Assembly (NCBI RefSeq): GCF_009834785.1
Contig: NZ_WUYX01000028.1
Location: 1 to 64,000, forward strand
Reading direction: 5' to 3'
Origin: Natronorubrum halalkaliphilum
Lineage (GTDB): Archaea; Halobacteriota; Halobacteria; Halobacteriales; Natrialbaceae
DNA: 64,000 nt
A program made the position numbers and the translations under genes. Positions within the stretch are counted from its first letter, which is position 1, and each line of letters begins with the position of its first letter. The notes beneath the pieces are model-generated. The model searched no databases. It was not told the origin of the DNA and worked only from the letters and a program-made list of their open reading frames with translations. Shown here in pieces: positions 9,916-16,739 of the stretch.

Positions 9916-10854
9916 TTACGACGGCGTCATATCGATGTTTAGCGACTTGCGCAACAGCTGCGTAAAGCCCATCGAGCACAGGAAGTACCAGACAATCCAG
10001 GCCGGCATCGGACCCAAAAGTCCGGAGTTCCAGCTAGTTTCGCCGGCGATCGGCATCACCACGGTTCCCTCGACTCCCACACCGTGGATCTTCCAGTACA
10101 TCCAGAGGAACAGCGGAATGGTAAACAGCATGATCCAGACCATCGGCCGGAGCTGCTCTTTGAACATCCCGAGGTTCTCCGCCATGGCCTCCATCTGCTC
10201 CTCGCGAGCTTCCTCGAGTTCGTTGTCGATACGCTCGAGTTCGGCCTCACTGGCGCCGCGTTCTTCGGCCTCTTTCTTGCGCTCGCGGACGTCCTTCTGT
10301 TTCTCCTGCATCGCCTTCATGCGCTCCTGATACTTCCCCATGATCTCGGGATTCATCAGATTCGCCTGCAACAGCGTCGAGTAGAGGCCGGTCAGGAGTG
10401 CAACGGACAGGATCACGGCATAAAATGGCATTGCGGTGTCGAGCGGCCCCAGCGCAAGATTGAGTGTCTCGCCAACGGTGTCTCGAACGGACTCGATCCA
10501 GTAGCCGAACATCAACAGCAGCGAGCCGACGCCAGCCAACTTATCCCACTGTGACCACTGGGATTCTTCGGCATCGATATCGACGTCGGCGCCGTAACTG
10601 CTGCTGTCGCCGTCCCCGTCGAGCGCCTCGTCGTAGGCCTCCCGGTCAGCGATTTCGAACCCCTCGTCACCGTCAACTAGTACGCCTTTTTCGATCAGCC
10701 GACCCCACTGTCCACTCGACAGGTCGTCGTTGACGTCGGCCCAGTTGACCTCGCCCCCGTTCCTGTCGGCTTCCTCGCGGATGGTCTCGAGAGCGTCTGC
10801 CATCGAGGAATCCTCGCGGACGAGGTCGTCGATCTTCTCCGCTGTACGCGTCAT
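9916..10854 (-). CDS. DUF106 membrane protein, EMC3/TMCO1-like (Oxa1 superfamily)
   Basis: This 312-residue protein has an acidic N-terminal cytoplasmic region (about residues 1-95, possibly a small winged-helix-like fold), then a membrane segment near 110, a second near 145, a charged coiled coil at about 180-235 (KYQERMKAMQEKQKDVRERK), and two more membrane segments at the C-terminus. This is the topology of archaeal DUF106 proteins, members of the YidC/Oxa1/Get1 insertase superfamily related to EMC3 and TMCO1. A membrane-protein insertion role near SecY is plausible. It usually adjoins adk and secY; here adk is displaced by about 5.2 kb. An AT-rich box (gataaacac, minus strand) lies about 40 nt upstream. 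Confidence 0.85.
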   Translation of the reverse strand: MTRTAEKIDDLVREDSSMADALETIREEADRNGGEVNWADVNDDLSSGQWGRLIEKGVLVDGDEGFEIADREAYDEALDGDGDSSSYGADVDIDAEESQWSQWDKLAGVGSLLLMFGYWIESVRDTVGETLNLALGPLDTAMPFYAVILSVALLTGLYSTLLQANLMNPEIMGKYQERMKAMQEKQKDVRERKKEAEERGASEAELERIDNELEEAREEQMEAMAENLGMFKEQLRPMVWIMLFTIPLFLWMYWKIHGVGVEGTVVMPIAGETSWNSGLLGPMPAWIVWYFLCSMGFTQLLRKSLNIDMTPS

Positions 10855-11030: not shown

Positions 11031-11057
11031 TGATCGAATGTAAACCAGTACGAAATA

Positions 11058-13835
11058 ATGAAAGAAAGTGGTGACTGGCTGCGGACCACGATCGGGGGAA
11101 AACGCGGGTTATCTCCGCAGGTGGGTCTCATTTTATTGTTTGGGATGGTGGCTATCGTTGGTATACTGGTTCTCGTCGCCGGAATGGGTTTGATCGATTC
11201 GCTCGAGTCCGAAAGTAGAGCAGAAAACACACGTAATTCCATGGATGTCATGGACCACGGACTTGCAACTGTTATTGGCACCGGCGAAAAACAAGAGGTC
11301 CCATTTGAGGATGCTCAATACAAAGAAGACGGATCGGTGTATATTGCATGGGTGAATGCCAGCTCAGGTAAATGGGACCACAAGCCCAATGCAACAATCA
11401 ATCCCCTCGGAACAATTGAATCAGAATTAGAGGGACGAACGATTGCGTATCAGGGAGGGGGTATATGGGAACAGACATCTGATGGAACGACCGTTTATTC
11501 TCCACCAACCATTCGATACGATAACAATTCATTGACGGTCGAACCGGTCCAGATCGAAGCAAGTGACATCAGAGGAGGTGAAGCGATTGCAGAAATCAAT
11601 GACGAAAAAGCAGAGAATTTGGCTGCACAAATAGAAGAAGCGTCGACGGAATCTAACGGAACCAATCTTGCGTTACAAATTGAAAGCGAGTATCACGAGG
11701 GGTGGAAGCAACATTTCCAATCAGCAATGGAAGGAGATGTTGATATTGATCATAACCCGAGTGAAAATCAGGTCAGAGTATATATCGAAGATGCGAGATC
11801 CGATGCACTATTCAAAGTAAGTGATCTCGAAGGCGATCGAATAGTCTCGCACAACGGCGATTTATCTGCCAACGCAACGGTTCGGAATATTGGTCACGCA
11901 CAGGGAGCGGAAAATGTAACGCTATCACTAAACCCGGAAAACAAAACCGAAGTCGAACTGAAACCCGGTGAGTCGGTGACGAAACCGTTCACGGTCCCCG
12001 TCGATAGTATTTCAACAGAGAAAACAGATCTCGATCAATATGGTGCCTACACCTACAACGTCAGTACAGTCAATGATTCTGTTGAACGCGAGTTCTTCCT
12101 GAGCTATCCTAACACATCATACTATGAACTCCGAGACGACAGCCTCAACGTCACTGAGGATCCCAATAACGGAACGGTTTCCCTCGAGGTTGGGTTTTTG
12201 AATATCGGAGAAAATGATGAGGAACGAAATGTCACAATCGGTGTCGATAGTGATCAACAGGTTGAAGATGATGGAGAGGTCGTCGATGTCTCTTGGGAAT
12301 CTACCACACCGATTAAACAACAACCGTGGAACGACAGCACGATCACATCGACAATAAACCGGAGCGCGCTTCCAGACGGAGAGTACAACCTCACAGTCAG
12401 TATCGAAAACGATCCCGAGACATGCAGTGCCGCTGGTAACGAACGGACGTGTAATGCATCTACTGAGTTCGAGATCGAGGGTGGTGAAATCGGTGATCCA
12501 GGTGAAGTGATTATTACTGAGCCAGCAAACGTAAGTACAAGCGTTATTGGTACCGAAATTTCCGCAGAAGGCGGGGGAACATCTGGTGTGAAGCCAACTG
12601 CGGATGCAACAGTTGTAATTAATGGTGCCGACGAGACAGACGGCTCGATGGTCCAACAGGGGTCGGGTAATCTTGGTTTCAGCCTTGTGCCATCCGAACC
12701 AGATGCGCCTGATGACGAACCAGAGATGACATCTCGTGGTGGATGGGTTGCAACAGATGGAACTACTCCGGAAGCTGAAGGAGAATGGATCAGAGAATGT
12801 GGTATTTTCACATGTTGGGACGAGTTTGAAGGTCATTGGGAGTGGGACGTTGACGAATTAGAGTGGAGTGAGGACGGCGGATACGAACTTAACTGGCACG
12901 AGGGAGGTGACTGGAGCTGGCAGGGAGACGGGTCGGCTGAAGTGGTTGAATTCGATCGATACAAGCGATGGGCACCGGTAACTGCATCTGTCACAGTCAA
13001 CGAAACAGAAACTCAACTGACGCCACAAGGCGAAGATAACACACTGCCCGCAGACAGCATCGACGACGATTCAATAGCCGAGCATAATCTAAATACCTTC
13101 GGTACGCAGAAAGAGGTCTGGAACTACGACGAAGAGAACGTGACCGGAACCGTCTCGATAAGTTCCACGTATTGGAACTGTAATCGATGGGAATATGCTG
13201 GCGTTGATAGTTCCAATGAAAGTGGGTATGATAGCAACTACTATCATCTTGAGTGTGCCGACTTTGGGTCCGAGATCACGACAGCAGAAGGCGGCGGTAA
13301 CGAAGCCGATTCTGATACCGGATTCGTCATGACTCGAGATTCCGATCGGAACAATCTACCAGAGATCGAGGAAGGATATCCGCGACAGCGAAACGTCACC
13401 GAAGTCTTCGAAGACGGCACTGACGACATCGAACTCGACGAGAACGGCAATCTCACACTCGGCCCACGAGACTTCGCGTTCATGATGGAGGTGACGATGG
13501 ACCAAAATGGGCTACAACAAGTATACGACCATGTCTATGATGGTGATTATGATCTCTACACCGACAATCAGACCGAACTGTTCCATGCGGCGTGGGATAT
13601 CGGAGAGAATTACCGGGACAACGTATCTGGTACAAATGATCCAAACTACAACGACGTGATCGGATTCGTTCAGGTTGACGGTGGCGGGACCTACGTCAAT
13701 CTCGAGGAGAATCCGTTCCGTAACGTTCGTGTTGACGGCGAATCGCGCGATACGAGTGTCGAAGGAGGAGGAACCCTCGATAGTGATGAGGCCGGTACTA
13801 TTTCCGTTGGTGCTGGTTCCATCGTGATCAGCTAG
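11058..13835 (+). CDS. Large pilin-like surface protein (DUF7289-like)
   Basis: This 925-residue protein has a short basic N-terminus ending KRGLSPQVG and then one hydrophobic helix (about residues 21-44). That is the arrangement of archaeal class III (PibD-processed) pilin-like signal peptides, with likely cleavage after RG. The rest is extracellular, very acidic, beta-rich and carries more than twenty N-x-S/T sequons. Two Ig-like or CARDB-like repeats appear around 270-360 and 375-475. Its first 260 residues resemble the protein at 14552, for example SEYHEGWKQHF against SEYWRGWVTFF. The coding sequence is distinctly AT-richer than its neighbours, and the gene sits inside an otherwise conserved housekeeping block, suggesting transfer. 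Surface adhesion or pseudopilus function is inferred. Confidence 0.65.
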   Translation: MKESGDWLRTTIGGKRGLSPQVGLILLFGMVAIVGILVLVAGMGLIDSLESESRAENTRNSMDVMDHGLATVIGTGEKQEVPFEDAQYKEDGSVYIAWVNASSGKWDHKPNATINPLGTIESELEGRTIAYQGGGIWEQTSDGTTVYSPPTIRYDNNSLTVEPVQIEASDIRGGEAIAEINDEKAENLAAQIEEASTESNGTNLALQIESEYHEGWKQHFQSAMEGDVDIDHNPSENQVRVYIEDARSDALFKVSDLEGDRIVSHNGDLSANATVRNIGHAQGAENVTLSLNPENKTEVELKPGESVTKPFTVPVDSISTEKTDLDQYGAYTYNVSTVNDSVEREFFLSYPNTSYYELRDDSLNVTEDPNNGTVSLEVGFLNIGENDEERNVTIGVDSDQQVEDDGEVVDVSWESTTPIKQQPWNDSTITSTINRSALPDGEYNLTVSIENDPETCSAAGNERTCNASTEFEIEGGEIGDPGEVIITEPANVSTSVIGTEISAEGGGTSGVKPTADATVVINGADETDGSMVQQGSGNLGFSLVPSEPDAPDDEPEMTSRGGWVATDGTTPEAEGEWIRECGIFTCWDEFEGHWEWDVDELEWSEDGGYELNWHEGGDWSWQGDGSAEVVEFDRYKRWAPVTASVTVNETETQLTPQGEDNTLPADSIDDDSIAEHNLNTFGTQKEVWNYDEENVTGTVSISSTYWNCNRWEYAGVDSSNESGYDSNYYHLECADFGSEITTAEGGGNEADSDTGFVMTRDSDRNNLPEIEEGYPRQRNVTEVFEDGTDDIELDENGNLTLGPRDFAFMMEVTMDQNGLQQVYDHVYDGDYDLYTDNQTELFHAAWDIGENYRDNVSGTNDPNYNDVIGFVQVDGGGTYVNLEENPFRNVRVDGESRDTSVEGGGTLDSDEAGTISVGAGSIVIS

Positions 13836-13954
13836 GGTCGTATTTTCCCCTCCGTTCAGATAGACAGGACGAGAACGCGTTCTGATATCTGTCCGTTTCC
13901 CTGCCGAAAAGAAAAAACCAAACTGATAACGTGAACAGTGATTGTAGAGCGTCT

Positions 13955-14378
13955 CTACAACAGTTCGGCCAGTAGGACAGCCGCTAAGCCGAAGTAGATT
14001 AGCAGGGCAGTCACGTCCTTGACTGTGGTGATAAGCGGGTCAGAGGCTGCTGCCGGGTCGAACCCGTATTTATTCATGACCCACGGGTGACGTAGCCGAC
14101 GACGGACGCGACCACACAGACTGACACGTGACCGAAATGACAATGAGTGCTAACTCGAGCGCATACGGCTCGTCCAACTATCAGATGTAGGCCGCTACTC
14201 CCCCGATTGGACCGGTGATTAAGCCGATCAGTAGCCCGACGAACCCGTCACGAGAAAAGTAGCACATCACGTTTCTATTCTCGATGTGTCCGAGTGCGAG
14301 ACCGCGAACGAAATCGTTGATGCCTGTACACCGGTGTTTCCACCCATACGATTGATGACAGGGACTAATAAAGTCCAA
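13955..14378 (-). pseudogene. mgtE: Frameshifted fragment of an MgtE/SLC41 magnesium transporter
   Basis: Read on the minus strand from about 14378, one frame gives VINRMGGNTGVQASTISF, the hallmark selectivity segment of the MgtE/SLC41 membrane domain. A shifted frame continues VRGLALGHIENRNVM and FVGLLIGLITGPIGGVAAYI before a TGA. Another frame gives [11 protein letters not shown], and a further shift gives [18 protein letters not shown] and [17 protein letters not shown], ending TAG at 13955. At least two frameshifts and one in-frame stop are visible, and the N-terminal domain and first membrane helices are absent. This is a decayed gene lying between two surface-protein genes. The match rests on recognised family motifs, not a search. 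Confidence 0.75.
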
Positions 14379-14551
14379 TAGAGTTGATCGGTGATAAATT
14401 GTTTATTGATGTTTTAGGGTTTATTGGTCCCTAATGAGCCAATTCTATGCCCGTCTAGACGATATTATTTCCACATATAGGCCGACATAAACGGTTATGA
14501 AGTATTTGATCGAATGACCGTACTAATACAGTGACACTCAATTAAGGGAGT

Positions 14552-16087
14552 ATGAGCGCGCCACGCCGGGACCAGTTACCCATTCCATCACGGAGAGCCC
14601 AATCAACTTTGATGGGCCTTGTCCTCCTGATCGGAATGGTCGCAGTCGGCAGCGCCGGAATCTTTCTCGTCGCCGGCGAGACGATCGGCGACGTCGAGCA
14701 GGAGACCGAAAACGAACGGATTTCACAGTCGTTCGTCGAGTTGCGACAGTCCCTCGACGGGGTATCTGCTGGGCCGGACACCTCGGGCAATATCAACCTC
14801 GATGCCGGAAAGAGTGGAGCCATCGCAAAGGACGAGACGGGCTACATGAAGGTCGAATCCGAGGGCCTCGACGAGGACATCAACCTGACGTTCGGGACCG
14901 TCGAGTACGTAAGCGACGACGGGACCAAGATCGCCTACGAGGCCGGCGGCGTGTTCCGCGAGACCGGCTACGAAACGCGCGTCGTCTCCTCGCCGAACAT
15001 CCAGTACGATCTCGAGACGGAAACCCTCTCGTTGCCCGTCCTCACTGTCACGGGAGACGAACAGCTCGGGTCCGGCGACATTTCGATGGCACACAACGAG
15101 ACGACGACCTATGCGGAGTCGAGCGTCGTCGAGAACGAAAGTGTCGATATCACGATTAGGAGCGAATACTGGCGCGGCTGGGTCACGTTCTTCGAACAGC
15201 AAGCGGGCGACACAACCGTTCGAGATATCGAACAGCTCGATGGAGACGCAGCAAAGGTAACGGTTCGTGTTGGGTATCTCGAGTTCGATGAAGCATTCGA
15301 GGGAAGTATGGTCCTCCCAGAAGGGGAAGCCAACATCAGTAGTGGAGGTGGAGGGTCATACGATGATGACGAAATCGTCTCAGGGAGTATTCAAGAACTC
15401 GATCCGATAATCAACGAAATGTTGGAAGATGAGAACGTTCCCGAAAATCGTATTGACCCGATCGACGGGTCAGAAAGCGCCTTCGAAAATGGGACGTACT
15501 TCACTGAATCAGTTCACCTCGATAATGGTAATGTAGAATTTGATGTCTCAGAAGGCAATATTACACTCCTCGTAAACGAAAGTGTGAAACTGGAACACGG
15601 AAATAGAATTCTTGTTACAGGTACAGAAGATAATCCAGAGAATAGCTTAAAGATCTACGTTAGAGAGGATCTGCACGCGAAGGGTGATCTCTGCGTCGAT
15701 CCCTGCGGAAAAGAAGAAGACGGGGAGGTTAGCGCAGAAAACTTGCAAATATACGGGACTTCGGAAATGCATGGAATGTTTGGGTCTGGGCAGGAAGCCT
15801 ATCTCGAAGGTATACTATACGCTCCGATCGAAGGTGAGTTTGACGAAGAAAACAAATTTGCAAACTCAAACGCGTGTAGAGACGTTCAGATTTGTTTCCA
15901 ATCGAATACTGGAAGCGACGGATCAATTGCCGCATCCTCTATTGGGTTACAAGGTGGTCCCGAGATTGCTCACGATCCGGAACTTACTGATGCGGATATC
16001 GATCTCTATCCCGAAGAATACGCACTCCCGCCACAGCTGACGTTCCTCAACGTCGCCCATCACGAACTCGAAGTGAGAAACCAATAA
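14552..16087 (+). CDS. Pilin-like surface protein (DUF7289-like)
   Basis: This 511-residue protein starts with a basic leader ending RRAQSTLMG, then a hydrophobic helix (about residues 21-43, GLVLLIGMVAVGSAGIFLVA), the pilin-like start typical of DUF7289 proteins. The segment up to about residue 245 resembles the first 260 residues of the protein at 11058. The C-terminal half is beta-rich and repetitive, possibly a beta-helix (GNVEFDVSEGNITLLVN). It has four Cys in LCVDPCG and ACRDVQIC that may pair outside the cell. Base composition changes inside the gene: GC-rich to about 15250, AT-rich from about 15300 to 15960, then GC-rich again. AGGGAG precedes ATG 14552. The role is probably cell-surface; partners are unknown. 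Confidence 0.65.
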   Translation: MSAPRRDQLPIPSRRAQSTLMGLVLLIGMVAVGSAGIFLVAGETIGDVEQETENERISQSFVELRQSLDGVSAGPDTSGNINLDAGKSGAIAKDETGYMKVESEGLDEDINLTFGTVEYVSDDGTKIAYEAGGVFRETGYETRVVSSPNIQYDLETETLSLPVLTVTGDEQLGSGDISMAHNETTTYAESSVVENESVDITIRSEYWRGWVTFFEQQAGDTTVRDIEQLDGDAAKVTVRVGYLEFDEAFEGSMVLPEGEANISSGGGGSYDDDEIVSGSIQELDPIINEMLEDENVPENRIDPIDGSESAFENGTYFTESVHLDNGNVEFDVSEGNITLLVNESVKLEHGNRILVTGTEDNPENSLKIYVREDLHAKGDLCVDPCGKEEDGEVSAENLQIYGTSEMHGMFGSGQEAYLEGILYAPIEGEFDEENKFANSNACRDVQICFQSNTGSDGSIAASSIGLQGGPEIAHDPELTDADIDLYPEEYALPPQLTFLNVAHHELEVRNQ

Positions 16088-16103: not shown

Positions 16104-16739
16104 TCAGGCCACGTCTTCGATCGTCGCCTTCACGTCCTCCCAGACCTCGTCCGGTGCCTGCTCGCCGTTGACGCGCTCGAGTACACCCTCATCCTCGTAG
16201 TATTCGATCACCGGCTCGGTGTTCTCTCGGAACACGCGCAGTCGTTCCTTGACGGTTTCTTCGGTGTCGTCGTCGCGCTGCTCGAGTCGATCCTCAACGT
16301 CGGGGTCCTCCGGCGGGTTGTACTCGACGTGATAGATCTCGCCGGTTTCGGGATCCATCCGACGACCGGTGAGCCGATGGACGAGTTCCTCCTCGCCGAC
16401 ATCGAGATAGAGAACGACGTCCAGATCGGTCATATCCTCGAGTTCCTCGGCCTGCTCGAGGTTTCGCGGGTAGCCGTCGAGGACGAAGCCATCGGCCTGG
16501 GAGAGCGCTTCGTCGACGATAGCGTTGACGACCTCATCGGGGACGAGTTCGCCCTGATCCATGTATTCTCGGGGGGTGTCGTACTCCGTGTCCATCTCCG
16601 AGATATCCATGTCCTTGTTCGCGCGGAGCGCGTCGCCCGTGGTGACGTGTTCGACGTCGAACGCCTCGGTGATCTTTGCACTCTGGGTCCCCTTGCCTGC
16701 CCCGGGAGCACCCAGGATCAGAATTCGTGGCTGTGCCAT
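16104..16739 (-). CDS. adk: Adenylate kinase
   Basis: This 211-residue protein is a long-form adenylate kinase, interconverting ATP + AMP and 2 ADP. The P-loop [10 protein letters not shown] is at residues 9-18, the NMP-binding region follows ([13 protein letters not shown]), and the LID domain starts [19 protein letters not shown] without zinc cysteines. ATG 16739 is chosen because the P-loop then falls at the usual position; the frame is open upstream, but that leader is cysteine- and arginine-rich. In haloarchaea adk usually sits between secY and DUF106. Here secY is about 9 kb away and DUF106 about 5 kb away, on the same strand. Confidence 0.95.

Follow-up and report, generated by a model that had tools for sequence, protein, structure and literature searches.

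A fixed chromosomal site in Natrialbaceae carries modular pilin-like genes whose outer parts are probably exchanged by recombination

Two neighbouring open reading frames (ORFs), P1 and P2, separate the DUF106 gene from adk in a 64,000-nucleotide (nt) stretch of Natronorubrum halalkaliphilum (hereafter the window, to which all coordinates refer). Are these genes newcomers, as supposed by an original prediction that read them as a recently acquired, AT-rich island of pilin-like surface proteins, or are they occupants of an old site whose content has changed? The DUF106-adk gap of Natrialbaceae is a fixed site for DUF7289 genes, and the recent part is what fills it, namely P1 at this site and P2 bodies probably exchanged between species. 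The features concerned are the following.

11058..13835, plus strand: P1, ORF for a 925-residue modular pilin-like surface protein (DUF7289 match, 7e-21)
11103..11789, plus strand: DUF7289 domain of P1, with the class III-like signal (R16-G17) and the hydrophobic segment at its start
11790..13832, plus strand: C-terminal region of P1, matching no known domain
14552..16087, plus strand: P2, the hypervariable gene here, an ORF for a modular pilin-like protein of 511 residues (DUF7289 match, 2.7e-23; DUF7305 match, 1.9e-32)
14594..15262, plus strand: DUF7289 domain of P2; the first ~24-30 codons, for the signal and the hydrophobic helix, form the anchor that sister species conserve
15362..15991, plus strand: DUF7305 domain of P2, a beta-solenoid in the structure model
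9916..10854, minus strand: DUF106 (EMC3/TMCO1-like), the conserved gene to the left of the exchange site (PF01956, 2.3e-40; found in 60/61 genomes)
16104..16739, minus strand: adk, conserved right flank (PF00406, 7.5e-45), at the 3' end of which similarity resumes in mosaic pairs

DUF106 was located in 60 relatives and the gap between it and adk was read in 40 stretches besides the window, the occupancy count also taking in profile-match coordinates and two rearranged or long loci. DUF7289 genes stand directly beside DUF106, on its adk side, in 31 of the 37 genomes labelled Natrialbaceae, and they stay beside adk in G019 and G025 though DUF106 has moved. The gap is empty in four of the 37 (45-121 base pairs, bp), as it is in all four outgroup families checked (93-170 bp). 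A scan of named genomes found the same arrangement in Natrinema, Natrialba, Halopiger, Halobiforma, Natronococcus, and others. P1 is indeed AT-rich throughout, as had been noticed, with a guanine-cytosine (GC) content of 0.491 versus 0.616 for the window, and P2, which is AT-rich in its second half alone, stands at 0.527. Because all 29 occupied gaps measured are more AT-rich than their own flanks, by 0.02 to 0.15, this composition belongs to the site and is no sign of recent arrival. A recent insertion into an intact conserved block is thus rejected by the family-wide occupancy.

Both proteins belong to DUF7289 (PF23960), with 75.3 bits for P1 and 83.2 bits for P2 against a curated cutoff of 27 bits, and P2 also matches DUF7305 (PF23981) above cutoff at 113 bits, a domain for which P1 gives no match. 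Their paralogy, already suspected from the sequence, is confirmed by a BLASTP alignment at 29% identity over 214 residues (E 3e-12), which spans ~220 residues at the N-terminus and with them the SEY..GW motif seen earlier in both. The pilin-like N-termini were likewise well recognized, each protein carrying an archaeal class III-like signal in which KRG is followed by LSPQVGLILLFGMVAIVGILVLVAG (KRG-LSP) in P1 and RRA by QSTLMGLVLLIGMVAVGSAGIFLVAG (RRA-QST) in P2. Both pass a simple scan for [RK][GA] plus a hydrophobic stretch. Motifs of the R[GA]x[ST] kind are present across their relatives, of which 33 out of 89 fail a strict class III motif scan, chiefly from a charged residue right after the motif. 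NCBIfam holds no name for P1 or P2, a sequence search for solved structures of their relatives gave no meaningful match, and a search for DUF7289 in the literature available found no paper. To our knowledge, no experiment has addressed any DUF7289 protein.

P2 proteins form an orthologue clade at the DUF106-adk site across the family, and P2 is present there in all nine Natronorubrum congeners. Their phylogeny departs from that of the flanks. A tree of 32 full-length P2 proteins requires 8 changes for the ten Natronorubrum rows, roughly the number obtained with shuffled labels, and Natronorubrum monophyly is rejected by the approximately unbiased test (p-AU 8e-34), whereas a tree of the DUF106 and Adk flanks keeps the ten together with one intruding species. 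P2 distance is unrelated to flank identity over 431 genome pairs (rho -0.05, p 0.29). In a control over 136 pairs, the short DUF7289 paralogue tracks the flanks with a rho of 0.75 against 0.04 for P2; one row of this control (G018) was read in the wrong frame, which should only weaken it.

The breakpoints are visible between sister species. In the pairs G003/G005 (DUF106 99% identical, Adk 97%) and G001/G004 (98% and 98%), the DNA of the first ~30 P2 codons and of most of the promoter is ~80-97% identical. Identity then drops to ~50% through to the P2 stop codon and is back at ~90% by the 3' end of adk. Beyond the anchor, P2 is replaced (30-48% identity) between sister species whose neighbouring genes are 97-99% identical. 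The same pattern separates Natrinema hispanicum DSM 18328 from CDM_6, with flanks at 96%, the 5' end of P2 at 97%, and its body at 68% in a gapped alignment. The P2 bodies of Natrialba asiatica, taiwanensis, and aegyptia are 94-97% identical in nt, as expected of a vertically inherited allele. Since vertically inherited bodies change slowly, replacement and not drift accounts for the divergent ones. P2 therefore joins a conserved part to a variable part and is decoupled from the species tree, the signature of a recombination-driven variable locus. Silent donor cassettes were looked for in the window's genome and none was found; it has only three DUF7289 loci, and P2 matches only itself and P1 there.

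P1 has another history at the same site, where it occurs in none of the nine congeners. Eight of the nine instead carry a P1-type gene of 808-1112 residues at a second place, locus B, which adjoins the ABCE1/RLI gene and a signal peptidase/TafE-like cluster and holds no P1-type gene in the window's genome. P1 could have been the congeners' gene relocated, but a clade uniting it with six of their locus-B genes is rejected (p-AU 4e-57), and its closest company in the P1 tree is the same-site P1 of G013 and G021, which belong to two other genera (support 95/89). At locus B, the P1-type genes of G003 and G005 are 81% identical overall and 20-40% identical in one internal stretch of ~150 residues. 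In the locus-B pairs L107/L108 and L112/L113, one internal stretch is replaced (20-60%), the remainder being mostly 80-100% identical. In Natrialba, replacement affects the upstream copy (30%), and the downstream one is conserved (89-95%). From L106 to L113, the P1-type genes adjoin a cluster comprising a TafE-like fimbrial protein, an S26 signal peptidase, CARDB, DUF5305, and DUF7344.

What the proteins may do is suggested by the company that the family keeps. The third, short DUF7289 gene of the window's genome is the last of a pilB-pilC-pilin operon next to che genes, which encodes an ATPase, a PilC/ArlJ-like membrane protein, and members of the pilin-like families DUF7287, DUF7288, DUF7261, and DUF7266. 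A long DUF7289 gene directly adjoins the pilB-pilC operon in outgroup genomes (L119, L120, L121, L147), and P2-like genes lie beside a PilA-type pilin gene in two relatives (L133, L135). A duplicated, variable-length, FlaFind-positive, and beta-rich protein has been proposed as a minor pilin of euryarchaeal systems, including the H. volcanii PilB4 type (PMC4858521), and DUF7289 is apparently this arCOG02911 family of Makarova et al. 2016. The AlphaFold model of P2 (predicted local distance difference test, pLDDT, 82) begins with a long N-terminal helix, the first part of which has low confidence, and continues with a beta domain at residues 78-242 and a solenoid at ~244-482. The solenoid (244-482) aligns in VIA-align with the pilin ComZ (6qvi) at Z 11.4 over 179 residues and 12% sequence identity; no match to a pilin fold was obtained for the N-terminal beta domain. 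For ComZ, a position at the pilus tip has been argued from its structure (PMC6561018). The pilin-related surface module of the original prediction is therefore well supported by the DUF7289 matches, the class III-like N-termini, the short paralogue in the pilB-pilC operon, and the ComZ-like solenoid.

The explanation favoured here, and in our judgment the probable one, is that P1 and P2 are modular pilin-like proteins of the type IV pilus (T4P) kind, with an outer part exchanged by recombination at a fixed site and probably displayed at a tip. In each, a class III signal with a hydrophobic helix would be followed by a DUF7289 beta domain and then by a large module facing outward, which in P2 is modelled as a beta-solenoid. 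Prepilin peptidase (PibD) would probably process them, and they would be placed on a filament assembled by PilB/PilC, most likely at its tip, where the outward module may contact something extracellular such as a surface, another cell, or a virus. DNA of related species would recombine between conserved anchors: DUF106, the promoter, and the pilin N-terminus to the left, and the 3' end of adk to the right. Because these conserved housekeeping flanks and the N-terminus would anchor homologous recombination, an incoming fragment would swap the displayed part only, leaving the N-terminal signals for secretion, cleavage, and assembly in place. Virus escape, adhesion to different substrates, and cell-cell recognition are candidate reasons why diversity would be favoured. 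A broader version, held tentatively and with more doubt than belief, sees a dedicated haloarchaeal surface-diversification site with a pilin anchor and interchangeable tip modules. Selection for rarity, through virus escape or through kin or mating recognition, would maintain many classes of these modules across genera, and the site would be the pilin-based equivalent of VARTIG.

Several points weigh against the favoured explanation. The divergence and breakpoint results compare one genome per species, and no donor sequence was found for a recent P2 swap. The P2 solenoid resembles ice-binding proteins (Z 14-15 in VIA-align) more than ComZ, Foldseek alone gave no significant match to the P2 model (best E 0.013), and the P1 model is unusable, its C-terminal region with pLDDT mostly <50 being too poor for a structure search. 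We know of no DUF7289 protein that has been demonstrated in a pilus. Finally, four genomes have two tandem P2 genes, a split with support 100/97 separates the clade of the four upstream copies from that of the four downstream copies, and differential loss of tandem copies could account for some of the divergent pairs.

This last point is the strength of an explanation by birth and death in a tandem array, in which several ancestral P2 paralogues existed, each species kept another one, and unequal crossing-over at the N-termini fused promoter and anchor to another body, with no transfer between species. In one genome, several DUF7289 genes do form an array next to DUF106, and the members of the pair G001/G004 are divided between the two tandem-copy clades. 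As the upstream and downstream copies fall in separate clades, loss of old paralogues contributes. However, about seven deep P2 classes occur among the ten Natronorubrum genomes, each of which has one P2 at the site, so that their ancestor would need many copies, all reduced to one; G003 and G005, with 97-99% identical flanks, differ inside a single clade; and the window's P1 groups with other genera. As a full account the array is unlikely, and exchange between species is considerably favoured over loss of paralogues.

The recently acquired adhesion pseudopilus island fares worse and is improbable. It can draw on the AT-richness, on the 3' half of P2 (DUF7305) with a GC content of 0.47 versus 0.60 for the 5' half (DUF7289), and on P1, which is new at the site within the genus. 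Against it, the site is occupied and AT-rich across the family, P2 being there in most relatives, which is largely the refutation that the original prediction had named, and no assembly genes lie at the DUF106-adk site. An account with no exchange, in which single genes are inherited vertically and diverge by fast drift or under strong positive selection, is rejected as hardly credible, for although surface proteins are often fast-evolving and the short paralogue also outpaces the flanks (55-86% in most congener pairs listed), the breakpoints are sharp, the correlation with flank divergence is zero, and bodies are 94-97% identical in some species pairs and replaced in others with closer or equal flanks. 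Carriage of P2 by viruses was likewise rejected, no relative having been detected among viral contigs at the sensitivity used.

Besides the genes themselves, the locus contains three smaller elements.

11031..11040, plus strand: first TGATCGAATG copy, 27 nt 5' of the P1 start
14507..14516, plus strand: second TGATCGAATG copy, 45 nt 5' of the P2 start, inside a TATTTGATC element common to congeners
13958..14080, minus strand: remains of the C-terminal end of a decayed mgtE magnesium-transporter gene, lying between P1 and P2 (PF01769, 2e-8; a 41-residue tail with interrupted frames)

The upstream sequence that had been described as shared by both genes exists in the sense that this 10-mer occurs exactly twice in the 64 kb, both strands scanned. 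Its role as a common regulatory motif is doubtful because the P1 and P2 copies sit in different settings, as judged by eye, and are placed differently with respect to nearby promoter-like sequence. A possible second mgtE fragment at 14184-14270 gave no PF01769 match.

Other arrangements were observed around P2 in relatives. In G007 (L072), a transposase-like ORF with repeated ends between DUF106 and P2 suggests an insertion sequence just upstream of P2. Natronorubrum bangense carries an identical P2 with DUF106 and adk neighbours both on its chromosome (L158) and on the 0.8-Mb plasmid unnamed1 (L180). The same P2 and adk are found on each of two contigs (L161 and L162) of Natrinema hispanicum DSM 18328, a duplicate or an assembly effect. 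The largest array seen is that of G023 Natronobiforma (L125/L154), with several DUF7289 genes between DUF106 and adk.

With the favoured explanation, two unnamed haloarchaeal families become a testable system, in which pilin-like proteins carry outer modules that species swap with one another at a single chromosomal site. If true, this would be among the few recombination-driven variable surface loci described in archaea, and it would offer a handle on what haloarchaeal pili bind, on why viruses or partners tell strains apart, and on how gene exchange between haloarchaeal species is focused on surface genes.

Several known systems share parts of this design. The closest in family are the arCOG02911 minor pilins, which, in the portion of Makarova et al. 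2016 available (PMC4858521), are found in both euryarchaeal T4P types and are duplication-prone, variable in length, FlaFind-positive, and beta-rich; the short DUF7289 gene ends an operon that is similar to the H. volcanii PilB4 locus. Their stated length is ~250-550 residues, whereas P1-type proteins reach 800-1300, their equation with DUF7289 is our own, and that portion of the account does not describe the fixed DUF106-adk site or the exchange. ComZ, the competence pilin of Thermus thermophilus (6qvi; PMC6561018), is also a pilin module bearing a large beta-solenoid, but in ComZ, a DNA-binding protein, the solenoid forms an insertion within the pilin sheet, whereas the P2 solenoid comes after the DUF7289 domain. 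Streptococcus sanguinis PilB and other bacterial modular pilins display on a filament a functional module grafted onto a pilin; PilB differs in being bacterial and having a von Willebrand factor type A (vWA) module, and exchange at a fixed site is not shown in the sections available (PMC8179133). VARTIG of Thermococcales, as presented in the accessible part of Makarova et al. 2021 (PMC8416519), is an archaeal surface protein with a variable C-terminal part off the species tree and in situ exchange between species. It differs by its immunoglobulin (Ig) domains and other downstream genes, and a pilin signal or DUF7305 is not reported in that part. Finally, antigenic variation of Neisseria pilE (PMC4877100) likewise combines a conserved pilin N-terminus, a variable remainder, and recombination, but it uses silent copies within one cell, whereas the window's genome has just its three DUF7289 genes.

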